Shown: positions 59,332 to 63,606 of the stretch, piece after piece | Position numbering within the stretch: position 1 is the first letter of the stretch | How the letters are laid out: each line of letters opens with the position of its first letter | Source: an uncultured Halocynthiibacter sp. | GTDB lineage: Bacteria > Pseudomonadota > Alphaproteobacteria > Rhodobacterales > Rhodobacteraceae | Direction of reading: 5' to 3' | Assembly: GCA_947503035.1 (NCBI GenBank) | Contig: CANNCD010000004.1 | Coordinates: 186,001-250,000, forward strand | Length of the DNA stretch: 64,000 bases | Program-made: the position numbers and the translations under genes | Notes under the pieces: generated by a model | The model's database searches: none | What the model saw: only the letters and a program-made list of their open reading frames with translations | What the model was told of the DNA's origin: nothing

Positions 59332-59538
59332 TTAAAGCAGAGCAAGCTCAGCAGCAGAGGCGCGGCCGTCGCGACCTTCTTGAAGTTCGTAAGAAATCTT
59401 CTGGTTGTCGGCAAGACCAGTAAGGCCAGCGCGTTCAACAGCAGAGATGTGTACGAATACATCAGAGCCGCCTGCATCAGGTGCGATAAAGCCGAAGCCT
59501 TTTGTTGTGTTAAACCATTTTACGGTGCCAGTAGCCAT
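59332..59538 (-). CDS. Cold-shock protein (CspA family)
   Basis: The 68-residue single-stranded nucleic acid-binding protein has RNP1 KGFGFI and RNP2 VFVHIS. It is very similar to the next gene (same ends [18 protein letters not shown] and LADNQK). A 227-base leader region separates it from the paralogue. AAGGAGACTACGGG precedes ATG 59538. Cold-shock or growth-phase induction is typical of the family. Confidence 0.97.
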   Translation of the reverse strand: MATGTVKWFNTTKGFGFIAPDAGGSDVFVHISAVERAGLTGLADNQKISYELQEGRDGRASAAELALL

Positions 59539-59765
59539 CCCGTAGTCTCCTTTGATATGATCCCACGCAACATGCATTGGGACGTCGCAGCAAACCAGAA
59601 AATCGATCCGGCTGCTTTGAAACAAAGCAGAATGATAGAATCTGTCGTCACGTGAATTAAAAATGCGCAGTAAATATTTGCATTTCAAGTTTTTTTTCGA
59701 TTTTTCAAAAAATTACCATACAACAGCCCGCAGGGCGGACCGTTTGGCCGTTTGTTCAATAAATC

Positions 59766-59972
59766 TTAAAGAAGGCTAAGGTCGCCGGCCATTTGACGGC
59801 CATCGCGACCCTCTTGAAGCTCGTAGGAAACCTTCTGATTGTCCGCAAGGCCAGTAAGGCCGGACCGTTCAACGGCGGAAATATGGACGAACACGTCCTT
59901 GCCGCCTTCTTCTGGCTCGATAAACCCAAAGCCTTTGGTGGTGTTAAACCATTTTACGGTGCCTGTGGGCAT
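59766..59972 (-). CDS. Cold-shock protein (CspA family), tandem paralogue
   Basis: The 68-residue protein begins [18 protein letters not shown] and ends [12 protein letters not shown]; it shares most residues with the gene downstream and differs mainly in the loop after RNP1 and in the tail. AAGGAG precedes ATG 59972. The upstream 213 bases contain no gene and presumably its promoter and leader. Tandem duplication is the likely origin. Confidence 0.97.
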
Positions 59973-60185: not shown

Positions 60186-60512
60186 ATGCAAATTATCAGT
60201 TTAAAAACATGTGACACCTGCCGTAAGGCAATCAAGGCCCTTCGGGAGGTACACCCTGACCTCACGGTCGTTGATGTCCGTGCCGATGGGCTGTCTGCCG
60301 TTGAATTTGAACGGCTATTTGGGGTTTTGGGCGATGCGCTTATCAATAAAAAATCCGCAACTTGGCGCGGTTTGGACGAAGACGTACGCGCGGGTGCGCC
60401 CGTTGAATTGCTGGTTGCCCATCCGACGTTGATGAAACGCCCCCTGATTGAGCATGACGGCGAAATTACGCTGGGCTGGACCAAAGATGTTCAGGCGAAG
60501 TGGCTTGGATAA
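60186..60512 (+). CDS. ArsC/Spx family thioredoxin-fold protein (YffB-like)
   Basis: The 108-residue protein has the thioredoxin-like ArsC fold with the CxxC-type motif in LKTCDTCRKAI (Cys9, Cys12) and the central Arg/Pro block (LINKKSATWRGL, MKRPLIEHDG) of the Spx/YffB branch. It is more likely a reductase-like or regulatory protein than an arsenate reductase; no other ars genes are near. ATG 60186 was chosen after GAGAG. Confidence 0.88.
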   Translation: MQIISLKTCDTCRKAIKALREVHPDLTVVDVRADGLSAVEFERLFGVLGDALINKKSATWRGLDEDVRAGAPVELLVAHPTLMKRPLIEHDGEITLGWTKDVQAKWLG

Positions 60513-60557
60513 TCGGCCACGCTTCCCTATCTATGGGAAAAGAGTAGGAGAGTAACG

Positions 60558-60908
60558 ATGCGGAATGCGGCTTTGGTATTGGGTTTGATCGGCGGAATTG
60601 TCGGGATGATCGTGGGTTTCTTTAGCTTTGGCTACACCGAATTTGTTGATTGGGCGAATACCCCCGCCTTGGATCAGGTCGATAATGTGGGATTGATCCG
60701 TGTCATGAGCCTTCTTGCGCCTCTTTTGGCGATTGCCGGGGGTGCGATGGCGCGGTCACAGGCGATGATTGGTGGCATCTTGATGCTCATCTCATCGGTG
60801 GGGATGCATTATGCGTTTGGTTTTGGCGTGTTTACAATGTTCCCAATTGCGATGTGCGGTCTGGGCGGTGTGCTGGCGCTTGTTGCGCGCCAGCCCGATG
60901 CGCATTAG
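60558..60908 (+). CDS. Small four-helix membrane protein (DUF4064-like)
   Basis: The 116-residue protein has about four hydrophobic segments, opening MRNAALVLGLIGGIVGMIVGFF, a short periplasmic loop (YTEFVDWANTPALDQVDNVG) and a closing hydrophobic pair. It resembles DUF4064-type small membrane proteins. GGAGAG precedes ATG 60558. The stop TAG shares bases with the convergent DoxX stop (TTAG). Confidence 0.72.
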   Translation: MRNAALVLGLIGGIVGMIVGFFSFGYTEFVDWANTPALDQVDNVGLIRVMSLLAPLLAIAGGAMARSQAMIGGILMLISSVGMHYAFGFGVFTMFPIAMCGLGGVLALVARQPDAH

Positions 60909-61459
60909 CGGCGACCGATGATCCGGTCGATGGACAATGGGCCCGCACCTTTGACGATCAGAACAACCAAAATGGTCACCCAGAACAGGCGCTGATCAAG
61001 GATCAAGCTGTCGGACAGGCGGTCGAACCATGCGCCGAGTGTGCCTTCGTGTTCGATCCCGCCGTGGCCGTAAAGGTCAGTGAGGGATTGGATCGCGATA
61101 AAGCCGATCATGCCGATGGATGCGAGACGTGTGAACAGGCCAAACACGACAAGCGCCGGTAGGATGAATTCCCCCCAAGTGCCCGCAAGAGCGACCAAGG
61201 TGTGGAACGGGGTTAGGGCGGATGTGTCATATCCCGCGGCCTCGATGGCCTTGGGGAAGATCTGGAAATAGGCGCCGTTGGAGAGGCTGAGAAAGCCGAA
61301 AAATCCATCGCCGATCTTGGTCAGGGCGGAGTTCCAGAAATAGATCAACAGCGTCGCGGCAAATGTGAAGCGCGCAAGCGTCGGAAGAACCACGCCGGAG
61401 AACTTGGTTTCTACCCATGCGAAAATCGCGTCGTGAAGCGAGAAAAGTCGTGTGATCAT
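60905..61459 (-). CDS. DoxX family membrane protein (HvfD-like), last gene of bufferin-type cluster
   Basis: The 184-residue protein has four to five hydrophobic helices and DoxX features (RFTFAATLLIYFWNSALTKIGDG, GTWGEFILPALVVFGLFTR). DoxX proteins occur with DUF692-DUF2063 genes in bufferin/Hvf operons, where a membrane or redox role is proposed but not proven. AAGGAT precedes ATG 61459. It lies 4 bases after the DUF2063 stop. Confidence 0.88.
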   Translation of the reverse strand: MITRLFSLHDAIFAWVETKFSGVVLPTLARFTFAATLLIYFWNSALTKIGDGFFGFLSLSNGAYFQIFPKAIEAAGYDTSALTPFHTLVALAGTWGEFILPALVVFGLFTRLASIGMIGFIAIQSLTDLYGHGGIEHEGTLGAWFDRLSDSLILDQRLFWVTILVVLIVKGAGPLSIDRIIGRR

Positions 61460-61463
61460 GTCG

Positions 61464-62213
61464 TTATCCTTCGTGTATCTTTGTTATTGCGGCCCCATGT
61501 ATCAGCGGGCCGAGGGTCGTTCCGAGATCGAACTCGGGTGTTGCGCGCGATGCCGCCTCAAAGGCGACGCCGAATGATTTATTGTTTTGAAGCGCCTCGA
61601 TAAATGTCGCCGCACCAGCAGGAAGTAACACTGGCATGGGGTCAAATTCGGGACGCGTGATCAGAACGTTTTCCCCAACGTTCTGCGGCACAGGGCCGTC
61701 TTTCATATTGGCGGCCCAGATGCCAAAGATCGGCCAACGGGACCGCACCAACGCCATGCTTGGGGCGAATTCGACCTTGATCTTCATCAGATCAGAGGCA
61801 GAAAACGCGCCAAGTTGCGCAGGATCGATCGCGGCCACATCCGCCGCGTGATAGGACACCCGCATCGCGCATTCGAGGCGCGCGACATGGGGCAGGTATC
61901 CGAATTGTTGAGCGGGCTCAAAGCTCCGCAAGAAACGGGGCATCTCGGCCCCGAAATCCTTGATTAACGGTGTTTGCGGCGGCTGATTGCGCAGGTATAC
62001 GCCCGCCATCGCGCGGAACCATTCATCGCCGACCAGTTTATAGATCACTGGAAAGGACGAAATCAGCGCTTCGGTCAGGGAAACGGCCACGTTGTTGCGG
62101 TACACATCGAACCGTTTACCCGCGGGCGCGCCGTTTGGGCCGATCAAACCGTCGGGTGTGGGTTTGTTCGCATCAAGGGTCGCGGTGATAAACTCGGCTT
62201 GGCTTACGGTCAT
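61464..62213 (-). CDS. DUF2063 protein (HvfC/BufC-like), MNIO partner
   Basis: The 249-residue protein has the DUF2063 N-terminal helical domain (about 1-95; FDVYRNNVAVSLTEALISSFPVIYKLVG is the best-known family stretch) and a C-terminal domain (about 130-245). In bufferin and HvfABCD systems this protein binds the DUF692 enzyme and helps deliver the precursor peptide. ATG 62213 overlaps the DUF692 TGA (ATGA), so the two subunits are made together. Confidence 0.9.
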   Translation of the reverse strand: MTVSQAEFITATLDANKPTPDGLIGPNGAPAGKRFDVYRNNVAVSLTEALISSFPVIYKLVGDEWFRAMAGVYLRNQPPQTPLIKDFGAEMPRFLRSFEPAQQFGYLPHVARLECAMRVSYHAADVAAIDPAQLGAFSASDLMKIKVEFAPSMALVRSRWPIFGIWAANMKDGPVPQNVGENVLITRPEFDPMPVLLPAGAATFIEALQNNKSFGVAFEAASRATPEFDLGTTLGPLIHGAAITKIHEG

Positions 62214-63067
62214 GCGGGCACCCCATTCAGTACGCTGGTCGCGCGCGCTGCCTCGGCGGCGAGGGTTGCCCAATCTGGCACATCTGTGTCCCACTCAATC
62301 AGCGTGGGTTTGGCGCCGCCCTTGGCAATCGTATAGTCGTACATTTCCCACACGGGTTCGACGACCTCGCGTCCGTGGCTGTCGATCAACAGGGGCGCGC
62401 CGAAATCATCGGTGTCTTCGTCATGGCCCGCCAAATGGATTTCGCCGACCTTATCCAATGGAAAGGCATCCACATAGGCATAGGGATCGGTTTGTTGGTT
62501 GGTCGCCGACACGAACACGTTGTTCACGTCAAACAACAGGCCACAGCCGGTGCGGGTCGCGATTTCGTTTAAAAATTCGACCTCAGGGATTTGGGATTCT
62601 GCAAAGGCGAGGTAATTCGACGGGTTCTCGAGCAACATCTTGCGGCCAACGGTGTGTTGAACCTGATCCACATGCGCAACGACACGGGCAAGGGTTTCCT
62701 CGGTATAGGGGAGGGGTAAGAGGTCGTTGAAAAAATGGCTGTCGTGGGTGGACCACGCCAAATGTTCGCTAAAGGACGCGGGGTTAAGCCAGGCGATAAG
62801 GTGTTTCAGACGGGCAAGGTGATCCGTATCAAGTGGGCCTTCGCCGCCTATGGACAGACCGACGCCGTGTACAGAAATTGGAAACCTTTGGGCGAGATGG
62901 CGCAGTTGGGAAATCGGACGACCACCGTCGCCCATGTAATTCTCGGCGTGCACTTCGAGCCATTCCACAGGTGCCGGATTTTCGATGATATCGGCGAAAT
63001 GCTGGGGCTTGTATCCGACGCCCGTGCGGTTGGGCAATTGGTCAAAAGAATGAACAGCATCAAGCAT
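62210..63067 (-). CDS. MNIO (DUF692) family iron oxidase (HvfB/BufB-like)
   Basis: The 285-residue TIM-barrel protein matches the multinuclear non-heme iron-dependent oxidase family, to which MbnB also belongs. Recognisable stretches are GVGYKPQHFADI, LEVHAENYMGDGG, SVHGVGLSIGG, LLENPSNYLAF, LFDVNNVFVSATN and IHLAGHDE, with the many His, Glu and Asp residues that bind the iron atoms. It is expected to modify cysteines of the neighbouring precursor peptide. GAGGTG precedes ATG 63067. A hairpin separates it from the precursor gene. Confidence 0.93.
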   Translation of the reverse strand: MLDAVHSFDQLPNRTGVGYKPQHFADIIENPAPVEWLEVHAENYMGDGGRPISQLRHLAQRFPISVHGVGLSIGGEGPLDTDHLARLKHLIAWLNPASFSEHLAWSTHDSHFFNDLLPLPYTEETLARVVAHVDQVQHTVGRKMLLENPSNYLAFAESQIPEVEFLNEIATRTGCGLLFDVNNVFVSATNQQTDPYAYVDAFPLDKVGEIHLAGHDEDTDDFGAPLLIDSHGREVVEPVWEMYDYTIAKGGAKPTLIEWDTDVPDWATLAAEAARATSVLNGVPA

Positions 63068-63097
63068 ATCGGCACCTCAGGAATGGTCAAAAGGGGC

Positions 63098-63123
63098 GTG
63101 TCCCCGCGGATGGGCGGGGACAC
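63098..63123 (-). terminator. Hairpin between precursor and MNIO genes (attenuator)
   Basis: GTGTCCCCGC and GCGGGGACAC form a perfect 10-base stem around a 6-base loop. On the minus strand it is followed by GCCCCTTTTG, a weak T tract. It would cause partial termination or protect the 3' end of the precursor mRNA. Confidence 0.6.
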
Positions 63124-63132
63124 AGCAAAATT

Positions 63133-63423
63133 CTATGCAGGTAGGTCGCGGTCAAGCGCTTCTAGGGAACCCATGCGGCCTTCTGGAAGTTCCATGGTCT
63201 CGCATGTGCCTTTGGCAACAACGGTCCATGCGTTACCTTGGTAATCCACGGTGGATGTACCGGCGCATGTTGTGCCAGGGCCCGCGGCGCAATCGTTCGC
63301 ACCAGCAAGGGAAATACCGTAGCATTTTTCAGTTTCAGCAGCGTGTGCAGGAGCAGTCGCGGCAGCAGCAACAGAAGCAGCAACAGCGCCAAGAACGGCG
63401 ATTGATTTAACAGTAGTGGTCAT
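63133..63423 (-). CDS. Bufferin-type RiPP precursor (DUF2282, BufA1-like)
   Basis: The 96-residue precursor has a Sec signal peptide ([12 protein letters not shown], alanine-rich core, cleavage near AHA at residue 28). Four cysteines follow at 34, 45, 53 and 74 in the DUF2282 pattern [19 protein letters not shown] and KGTCE, then an acidic C-terminal tail. In Caulobacter bufferin 1, an MNIO/DUF2063 pair turns cysteines into thiooxazoles that bind copper in the periplasm; the same is inferred here. GAGAGGATG precedes ATG 63423. First gene of the cluster. Confidence 0.9.
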
Positions 63424-63451: not shown

Positions 63452-63467
63452 GTCGCAGCGTTGCGAC
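63452..63467. promoter_or_regulatory. Inverted repeat in the precursor gene leader
   Basis: GTCGCA and TGCGAC arms around GCGT lie about 30-45 bases before the precursor start; an operator or leader hairpin is possible. The surrounding interval (63424-63575) contains no gene, and no GTAACC-type SigF promoter like that of Caulobacter bufferin operons was seen. Confidence 0.3.
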
Positions 63468-63569
63468 TGGGATATTTGTAGCTCAGAGGTGTTAAACGTT
63501 TCCACTCACAACGGCGTGTGTCACGTTTGCGTGTGGTGATGTTATGATTTTCGTGGGGATATTGCAAAA

Positions 63570-63606
63570 ACGCAAACGGCCCGCCGCAAATATTACGACG
63601 GGCCGT
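63570..63606 (-). terminator. Intrinsic terminator of thrS
   Basis: ACGGCCCGCCG (63576-63586) pairs with CGACGGGCCGT (63596-63606), one C-A mismatch; on the minus strand it is followed by TTTGCGTTTTTG. Confidence 0.7.

Follow-up and report, generated by a model that had tools for sequence, protein, structure and literature searches.

The stretch analysed here (the window) comprises 64,000 nucleotides of contig CANNCD010000004.1 from an uncultured Halocynthiibacter sp. of the family Rhodobacteraceae, and it carries four genes that read bufA, bufB, bufC and doxX along the minus strand (60905-63423; Table 1), preceded by a putative tandem palindrome operator. A first-pass annotation had described a 96-residue open reading frame with cysteines at positions 34, 45, 53 and 74 together with DUF692, DUF2063 and DoxX genes, all of which we found, with the domains identified by Pfam. 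It had also described an ATGA overlap and a 4-base gap among the last three genes, and both are seen: the bufB and bufC genes share the 4 bases ATGA, 4 bases separate bufC from doxX, and the gap between bufA and bufB is 65 bases. Judged by sequence, the four genes form a complete, ordinary cluster of the published Buf1 (DUF2282) bufferin class, and our verdict on the locus as a whole is that it represents a lineage-specific regulatory variant on this otherwise ordinary cluster.

Table 1. Features of the bufferin locus (window coordinates; the last column gives the supporting score or observation)
Feature	Position	Strand	Support
bufA1, Buf1/DUF2282 bufferin precursor, 96 aa	63133..63423	minus	PF10048 86.3 bits, cut-off 22.4
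bufB1, MNIO (DUF692) bufferin maturase, 285 aa	62210..63067	minus	PF05114 (MbnB_TglH_ChrH) 353 bits
bufC1, DUF2063 partner protein, 249 aa, ATG start	61464..62213	minus	PF09836 82.6 bits
doxX, DoxX-family membrane protein, 184 aa	60905..61459	minus	PF07681 23.6 bits, exactly at cut-off
Putative tandem palindrome operator, two CAC-N6-GTGA units, 15-bp period, then NTGG	63502..63534	minus	
-10-like hexamer TACAAA (next base T), 21 bases after operator TGG	63475..63480	minus	conserved cTANNNT columns
Hairpin GTCGCA-ACGC-TGCGAC at predicted transcript start	63452..63467	minus	
Terminator-like hairpin at thrS end, between bufA1 and thrS	63576..63606	T run on minus strand	read directly from sequence

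Assignment to the bufferin class follows from a precursor above the DUF2282 cut-off, a maturase that scores 381.1 bits against the NCBIfam bufferin-maturase model NF050167 (MNIO_BufB; cut-off 310), aligned iron ligands, and a gene content identical to the Buf1 core of precursor, MNIO, DUF2063 and DoxX genes described in PMC12452194. Alignment of BufB with MbnB (7dz9) and with 3bww shows that the metal ligands are kept. Eight ligands are named for VcMbnB in PMC8888699; His91, Glu135, Asp165, Asn168, His194, Asp209 and Glu238 correspond to BufB His102, Glu147, Asp180, Asn183, His211, Asp229 and Glu258, the eighth is likely BufB His67, and the catalytic base Asp240 aligns with BufB Asp260. The iron ligands, whose absence from the DUF692 protein the first-pass annotation had named among the findings that would refute its proposal, are therefore in place, seven of the eight by alignment with MbnB and the last by alignment with 3bww. 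The structural model of BufC, a DUF2063 partner of PME type 1, has a mean predicted local distance difference test score (pLDDT) of 96, and its fold matches TglI (8hi7, E 3e-6) and NGO1945 (3dee, E 1e-5); a sequence search for solved relatives of BufC gave none that was convincing. The host genome contains one DUF2282 protein and one MNIO.

The same annotation had called the cluster bufferin/HvfABCD-type, and the bufferin half of that name is supported while the Hvf half is not. A cluster making an HvfA/oxazolin-type peptide would use the same enzyme pair, and its product is reported in PMC13097082 to be the same thiooxazole; a substrate with two repeats lost 8 Da in that work, which amounts to 4 Da for each modified cysteine. 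Such an identity is nevertheless highly improbable here: the precursor is a DUF2282 protein that lacks the EGKCG repeat, and none of the HvfB, HvfC and HvfX models reaches its cut-off (240 against 360, 38 against 142 and 30.5 against 80 bits). The Buf2 model NF050166 likewise scores 19.2 bits against a cut-off of 60, and the precursor has four cysteines as opposed to the six or twelve of Buf2.

The N-terminus of BufA1 is a hydrophobic stretch ending in AHA that resembles a signal peptide by eye. Comparing the precursor with the bufferin families and aligning its cysteines, as had been proposed at first pass, gave the DUF2282 match of Table 1 and showed the four cysteines to be invariant in all 84 aligned DUF2282 proteins. 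These 84 sequences are the window's own precursor and 83 picked from 137 relatives; they combine relatives near the query with the top DUF2282 scorers and are not a random sample. PMC12452194 places the modification on the two central cysteines and a disulphide between the outer two. The acidic tail after Cys74 noted by the first-pass annotation is present, with six acidic and two basic residues among the last 22. Its reading as unusual did not survive: conservation in relatives, and a confident model of this region, rule out an oddity of this locus and make the tail a lineage trait. Gly85 is invariant across the alignment (84/84), Ser86 and Leu87 are nearly so, and expression matching finds the GSL core in 80 of the 84 rows and an L..RD-type end in 54. 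The full form, (E/D)LPxGRMGSLExLxRDLPA, occurs in relatives from Rhodobacteraceae and some other alphaproteobacteria, and other relatives end in a shorter ETPxGMGSLEP form or only in GGSL. The BufA model consists of an ordered core plus the tail, which is also predicted to be ordered (pLDDT 91 for residues 71-80, 92 for 81-90 and 85 for 91-96); a Foldseek search of this model against the PDB gave no usable match (best E 5.1).

Variants of the precursor gene were seen among the relatives. Three loci (L095, L107 and L014) encode a BufA with a much longer tail of more than 40 residues after the last cysteine, and three others, from relatives in Tropicimonas, Aliiruegeria and Afifellaceae (L008, L009 and L007), have two consecutive DUF2282 precursor genes before a single bufB/bufC pair. 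Nitratireductor sp. XY-223 (L016:980-1780) keeps a long-tailed bufA and doxX; bufB and bufC were not found there, and the bufA-doxX gap holds only apparent out-of-frame remnants.

Side-by-side reading of bufA upstream regions revealed a 14-bp palindrome unit, TNACR-N4-YGTGA, arranged in tandem. The pattern CAC-N6-GTGA-NN-CAC-N6-GTGA-NTGG has a single mismatch-free match both in the window and in the 3.1-Mb genome, namely the operator of Table 1. Across relatives the conserved columns read T.ACR....YGTGA..CAC(G)....YGTGANTGG, with an extra TNAC half-site 10 bases upstream, and 54 of 98 bufA upstream regions score at least 14 on a 17-position template, a score that no dinucleotide shuffle out of 1960 attains (the precursor expression failed to pick up 15 of 110 loci, which were left out, and the two locus sets overlap, e.g. 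L052 and L112). At no more than one mismatch, 105 sites occur in 100 of 295 family genomes, whereas the reversed pattern occurs once. Of these, 69 have a DUF2282 domain from the matches listed no more than 350 bp downstream on the same strand, 32 are in genomes without DUF2282 among the matches listed, and four are elsewhere: one in a bufA-bufB gap, one on the opposite strand of the same palindrome, and one each at G105:C1 and G163:C10. Eight of the 32 were fetched and all lie upstream of bufA; another is the other strand of a fetched site. In total, bufA is confirmed beside the site in 77 genomes, with 23 sites unchecked. In a sample drawn across the class the site occurs in three of the five genomes from the family and in 2 of the 380 from outside it, with five matches of the reversed control, four of them outside the family; the site is thus at chance level outside the family. 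The G105:C1 site precedes an open reading frame that resembles a solute symporter by eye (L199) and may be a chance occurrence.

The upstream neighbour of bufA1 is the 3' end of thrS, a fragment cut by the window edge. Each of the 30 fetched sites belongs to a buf cluster, 29 preceding bufA and one standing in the bufA-bufB gap. Since no thrS is seen at five of these loci, it is bufA and not thrS that the site accompanies. The case in which the operator stands between bufA and bufB is L135 (G063). By title or abstract, no paper on this site turned up in the open literature searched, most of which was not read beyond its listing.

In Caulobacter, sigma-F controls both buf operons and a YedY gene (PMC3511200), and perchlorate reducers pair sigF/nrsF with yedYZ and mrpX (PMC4623255). 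The first-pass annotation reported no extracytoplasmic function (ECF) sigma/anti-sigma pair adjoining the cluster, in agreement with the neighbours that we see (thrS, DUF4064-like and ArsC-like genes; the whole 64 kb was not scanned for ECF sigma factors). It regarded this lack as unusual, and here we differ, since it is a lineage trait and a search of the whole genome (99.9 percent complete), one that matched the Caulobacter control, found no NrsF. NrsF occurs in 45 of the 295 family genomes, 40 of them over the cut-off. For 26 of these 40, DUF2282 is among the matches listed, and in 18 of the 26 NrsF lies within 2 kb of bufA on the opposite strand. Because NrsF stands near bufA in some genomes and is absent from others, the family holds at least two arrangements. 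The operator and NrsF rarely coincide: the former is present in 1 of the 40 genomes with NrsF over the cut-off versus 99 of the 255 others (p ~5e-7, not corrected for kinship), and in the one genome that has both, NrsF is on a different contig from bufA. At a locus with NrsF beside bufA (L048), the upstream region scores at background (9/17).

The second site in G163 (G163:C10) lies 86 bp before an MsrB gene with an N-terminal leader (L200, L201), an observation that prompted a test of msrB loci more generally. Of the 30 best family MsrB loci, 12 show a single copy of the palindrome in the 220 bp before the gene, in ten cases at 63-98 bp from the start, compared with 0.33 ± 0.59 (maximum 3) in shuffles; excluding the locus that prompted the test leaves 11 of 29. 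The 300 bp upstream of 30 response-regulator genes contained the palindrome once. In four loci, picked by expression, a fasciclin-like open reading frame precedes msrB, and in all four the palindrome precedes that frame; one of the four is Fasciclin by Pfam. The host genome has one MsrB match (E 8e-42), and the window contains no exact match to the single palindrome. In two genomes (G246 and G077) NrsF lies ~1 kb from msrB. In one relative, genes for a protein with sigma-70 region 2 and for an RskA-type anti-sigma factor are found beside msrB (L273:3828-5079), possibly a third kind of control for msrB. E. coli induces its periplasmic msrP in response to copper by way of CusSR (PMC9302797). With the cases of Caulobacter sigma-F, sigF/nrsF of perchlorate reducers and CusSR of E. 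coli, the same pairing of functions, a peptide or copper response with methionine repair, thus recurs under different control.

Downstream of the dyads, a TANNNT block lies 21 bases past TGG (T in 37, A in 43 and the final T in 36 of 56 upstream regions); the window's hexamer has A where the final T is commonest. The dyads end near the -35 region and no -35 hexamer is recognisable, which suggests that the putative regulator is an activator. A rival view takes the conserved stretch for a promoter element of an unusual kind, recognised by an alternative sigma factor. In its favour, transcription of the Caulobacter bufferin operons depends on the ECF factor sigma-F (PMC3511200), and the ECF-sigma-like/RskA pair near msrB in one relative (L273) points the same way. 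The element consists, though, of two dyads in tandem, with the -10-like hexamer 21 bases further on, and a single dyad stands alone at msrB. To our knowledge, ECF promoter elements are not palindromic, and on balance we regard a sigma-factor element as improbable and favour an operator.

The predicted transcript start, about 30 bases after the operator, coincides with a hairpin. Just past the -10-like block, 47 of the 54 leaders can pair into a stem of at least 4 bp within their first 28 bases, whereas shuffles give 9.5 ± 2.6 (two of the 56 were dropped for start or length). Because 33 different 5' arms preserve the pairing, the conservation points to an RNA structure rather than a fixed DNA site. 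The folding signal of whole leaders is modest (mean z -1.3), and the window's leader, taken singly, does not reach significance (z -0.6).

A two-component response regulator of the CusR/CopR/HprR type, sensing periplasmic copper or oxidants, is one candidate for binding the tandem palindrome. The E. coli box CATTACAAAATTGTAATG shares the TNACA-N4-TGTNA geometry, CusSR mediates the copper induction of periplasmic msrP in that organism (both PMC9302797), and a single palindrome precedes leader-bearing msrB genes here. We nonetheless consider this candidate unlikely, though less so than the sigma-factor element. The cut-off of the family model TIGR01387 is not exceeded in any of 45 genomes (23 with the site and 22 with NrsF), intermediate hits above 200 bits are evenly split (7 of 23 site genomes and 6 of 22 NrsF genomes), and upstream of 30 such regulator genes (300 bp each) the palindrome occurs once. 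The best score in the host genome is 228 bits, against a cut-off of 279.2. A CusR/CopR-type regulator is therefore not supported by these counts (0/45 genomes and 1/30 genes).

Other regulator genes were encountered singly. A WYL-type regulator lies between thrS and bufA at L003 only. In one genome (L204/L271) a response regulator stands beside msrB; its relative in the host genome (44 percent identity) is followed by a sensor kinase, a pair that we take to be ChvI/ChvG. No palindrome is found at L261, and at L271 the regulator is preceded, at 277 bp, by no more than a loose one.

Several points weigh against a palindrome-binding regulator that governs bufA and msrB. The initial pattern was derived by eye from some of the same 98 regions on which it was then scored, the 295-genome and class searches being the wider tests. 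Of 123 genomes with DUF2282 among the matches listed and no NrsF over the cut-off, 54 lack the site at one mismatch or fewer, so that either the site degenerates or some other control exists. The window's own site has A for T at the outer position. With three mismatches allowed, the host genome has 14 places as against one for the reversed pattern; four were looked at, one being the bufA site, L122 (one mismatch) lying inside a long open reading frame, L123 (two) appearing to be coding by eye, and L130 (three) being intergenic. At msrB, 18 of the 30 loci have no palindrome, the loci were the best matches to the one that prompted the test and not a random draw, and at L215, where a fasciclin-like end before msrB is visible by eye and missed by the expression, 1500 bp contain no palindrome. 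Finally, no TIGR01387 regulator over the cut-off appears in the 45 genomes, and no regulator recurs among the neighbouring open reading frames scanned (10 + 9).

The cluster itself is widespread. DUF2282 occurs in 211 of the 295 family genomes and in 135 of 385 genomes drawn across the class. The relatives named in this study, mostly Rhodobacteraceae, are the best 80 of 518 found, some of them cut by contig ends; bufB, bufC and doxX all lie beside bufA in 76 of the 80, the thrS end is within 900 bp of bufA in 45, and 49 of the loci include an ArsC-like gene. In the window, the downstream neighbours of doxX are a DUF4064-like gene (27.9 bits, below the cut-off of 32.1) and an ArsC/Spx-like gene (60186-60908), which face doxX, the DUF4064 and doxX ends overlapping by 4 bases; this pair recurs beside the buf cluster in many Rhodobacteraceae. 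Further along is a tandem pair of cold-shock-domain genes (59335-59972), the frame at 59335-59688 being N-terminally extended as called from a TTG start.

Taken together, we favour, with a probability of roughly 0.78, a complete Buf1 operon with its own promoter under a putative palindrome-binding regulator and not under sigma-F/NrsF, the single-copy palindrome serving msrB and fasciclin genes in relatives. This reading draws on cluster identity, the aligned ligands, the conserved tail, the conservation and specificity of the operator, the absence of NrsF and the enrichment of the palindrome at msrB. The operon would be transcribed from a promoter downstream of the putative thrS terminator that in this lineage is presumably not run by sigma-F/NrsF, and the regulator, probably an activator, would occupy the tandem palindrome, which ends near the -35 region; single copies of that palindrome would serve the exported msrB and fasciclin genes of related genomes. 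By analogy with characterised bufferins, BufB and BufC would convert the central Cys45 and Cys53 of BufA to thiooxazoles, the outer Cys34 and Cys74 would form a disulphide, and the product, exported by Sec, would bind periplasmic copper.

The copper role of this particular BufA is inferred, and the operon might instead serve another metal or an oxidant. Some bufferin operons are named for gold induction and other metals are discussed in PMC12452194, and the palindrome is shared with genes that indicate oxidative envelope damage. The characterised Caulobacter Buf1, however, binds copper (PMC12452194), and the four cysteines and the maturases are conserved here, so that we think a role other than copper rather unlikely. 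A broader picture, which we put forward tentatively and at a little under even odds, is that in Rhodobacteraceae a putative periplasm-stress regulator reading a CusR-like dyad replaces sigma-F/NrsF and commands bufferin for copper, exported MsrB for oxidised methionines, and fasciclin, with the tandem site giving bufferin the strongest control and the conserved 5' hairpin adding a post-transcriptional one.

As a cluster, this is one more bufferin among thousands. The operator, in turn, offers a tangible way into the question of how bufferin could be switched on without sigma-F/NrsF across a large bacterial family, and it suggests a directly testable link between copper buffering and periplasmic methionine repair; it could serve as bait for its regulator and as a motif for listing the regulon.

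Comparison with known systems sets these features in context. The Caulobacter vibrioides Buf1 operons share with this locus the core genes, the four cysteines, the MNIO with its DUF2063 partner and a precursor that, here by the look of its N-terminus, is of the secreted type; the present genome differs in having no NrsF and a tandem palindrome operator instead, and in the extended (E/D)LPxGRMGSLExLxRDLPA tail, the Caulobacter sequence itself not having been compared. With Haemophilus HvfABC(X)/oxazolin (the EGKCG class) the likeness would lie in a homologous MNIO and partner, a cysteine-containing peptide and copper binding, whereas the precursor belongs to another family and all Hvf models fall below cut-off here. 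The E. coli CusR/HprR boxes show the same 14-bp dyad, with the same arm length and spacing, and unite copper and periplasmic Msr in one regulon; here the arms are GC-rich, the copies at bufA are in tandem, and no family-level CusR was found. Finally, the sigma-F/NrsF stress regulon likewise groups a secreted peptide with periplasmic methionine-sulphoxide repair, and here, without NrsF, the link is a palindromic site at the buf, msrB and fasciclin genes.

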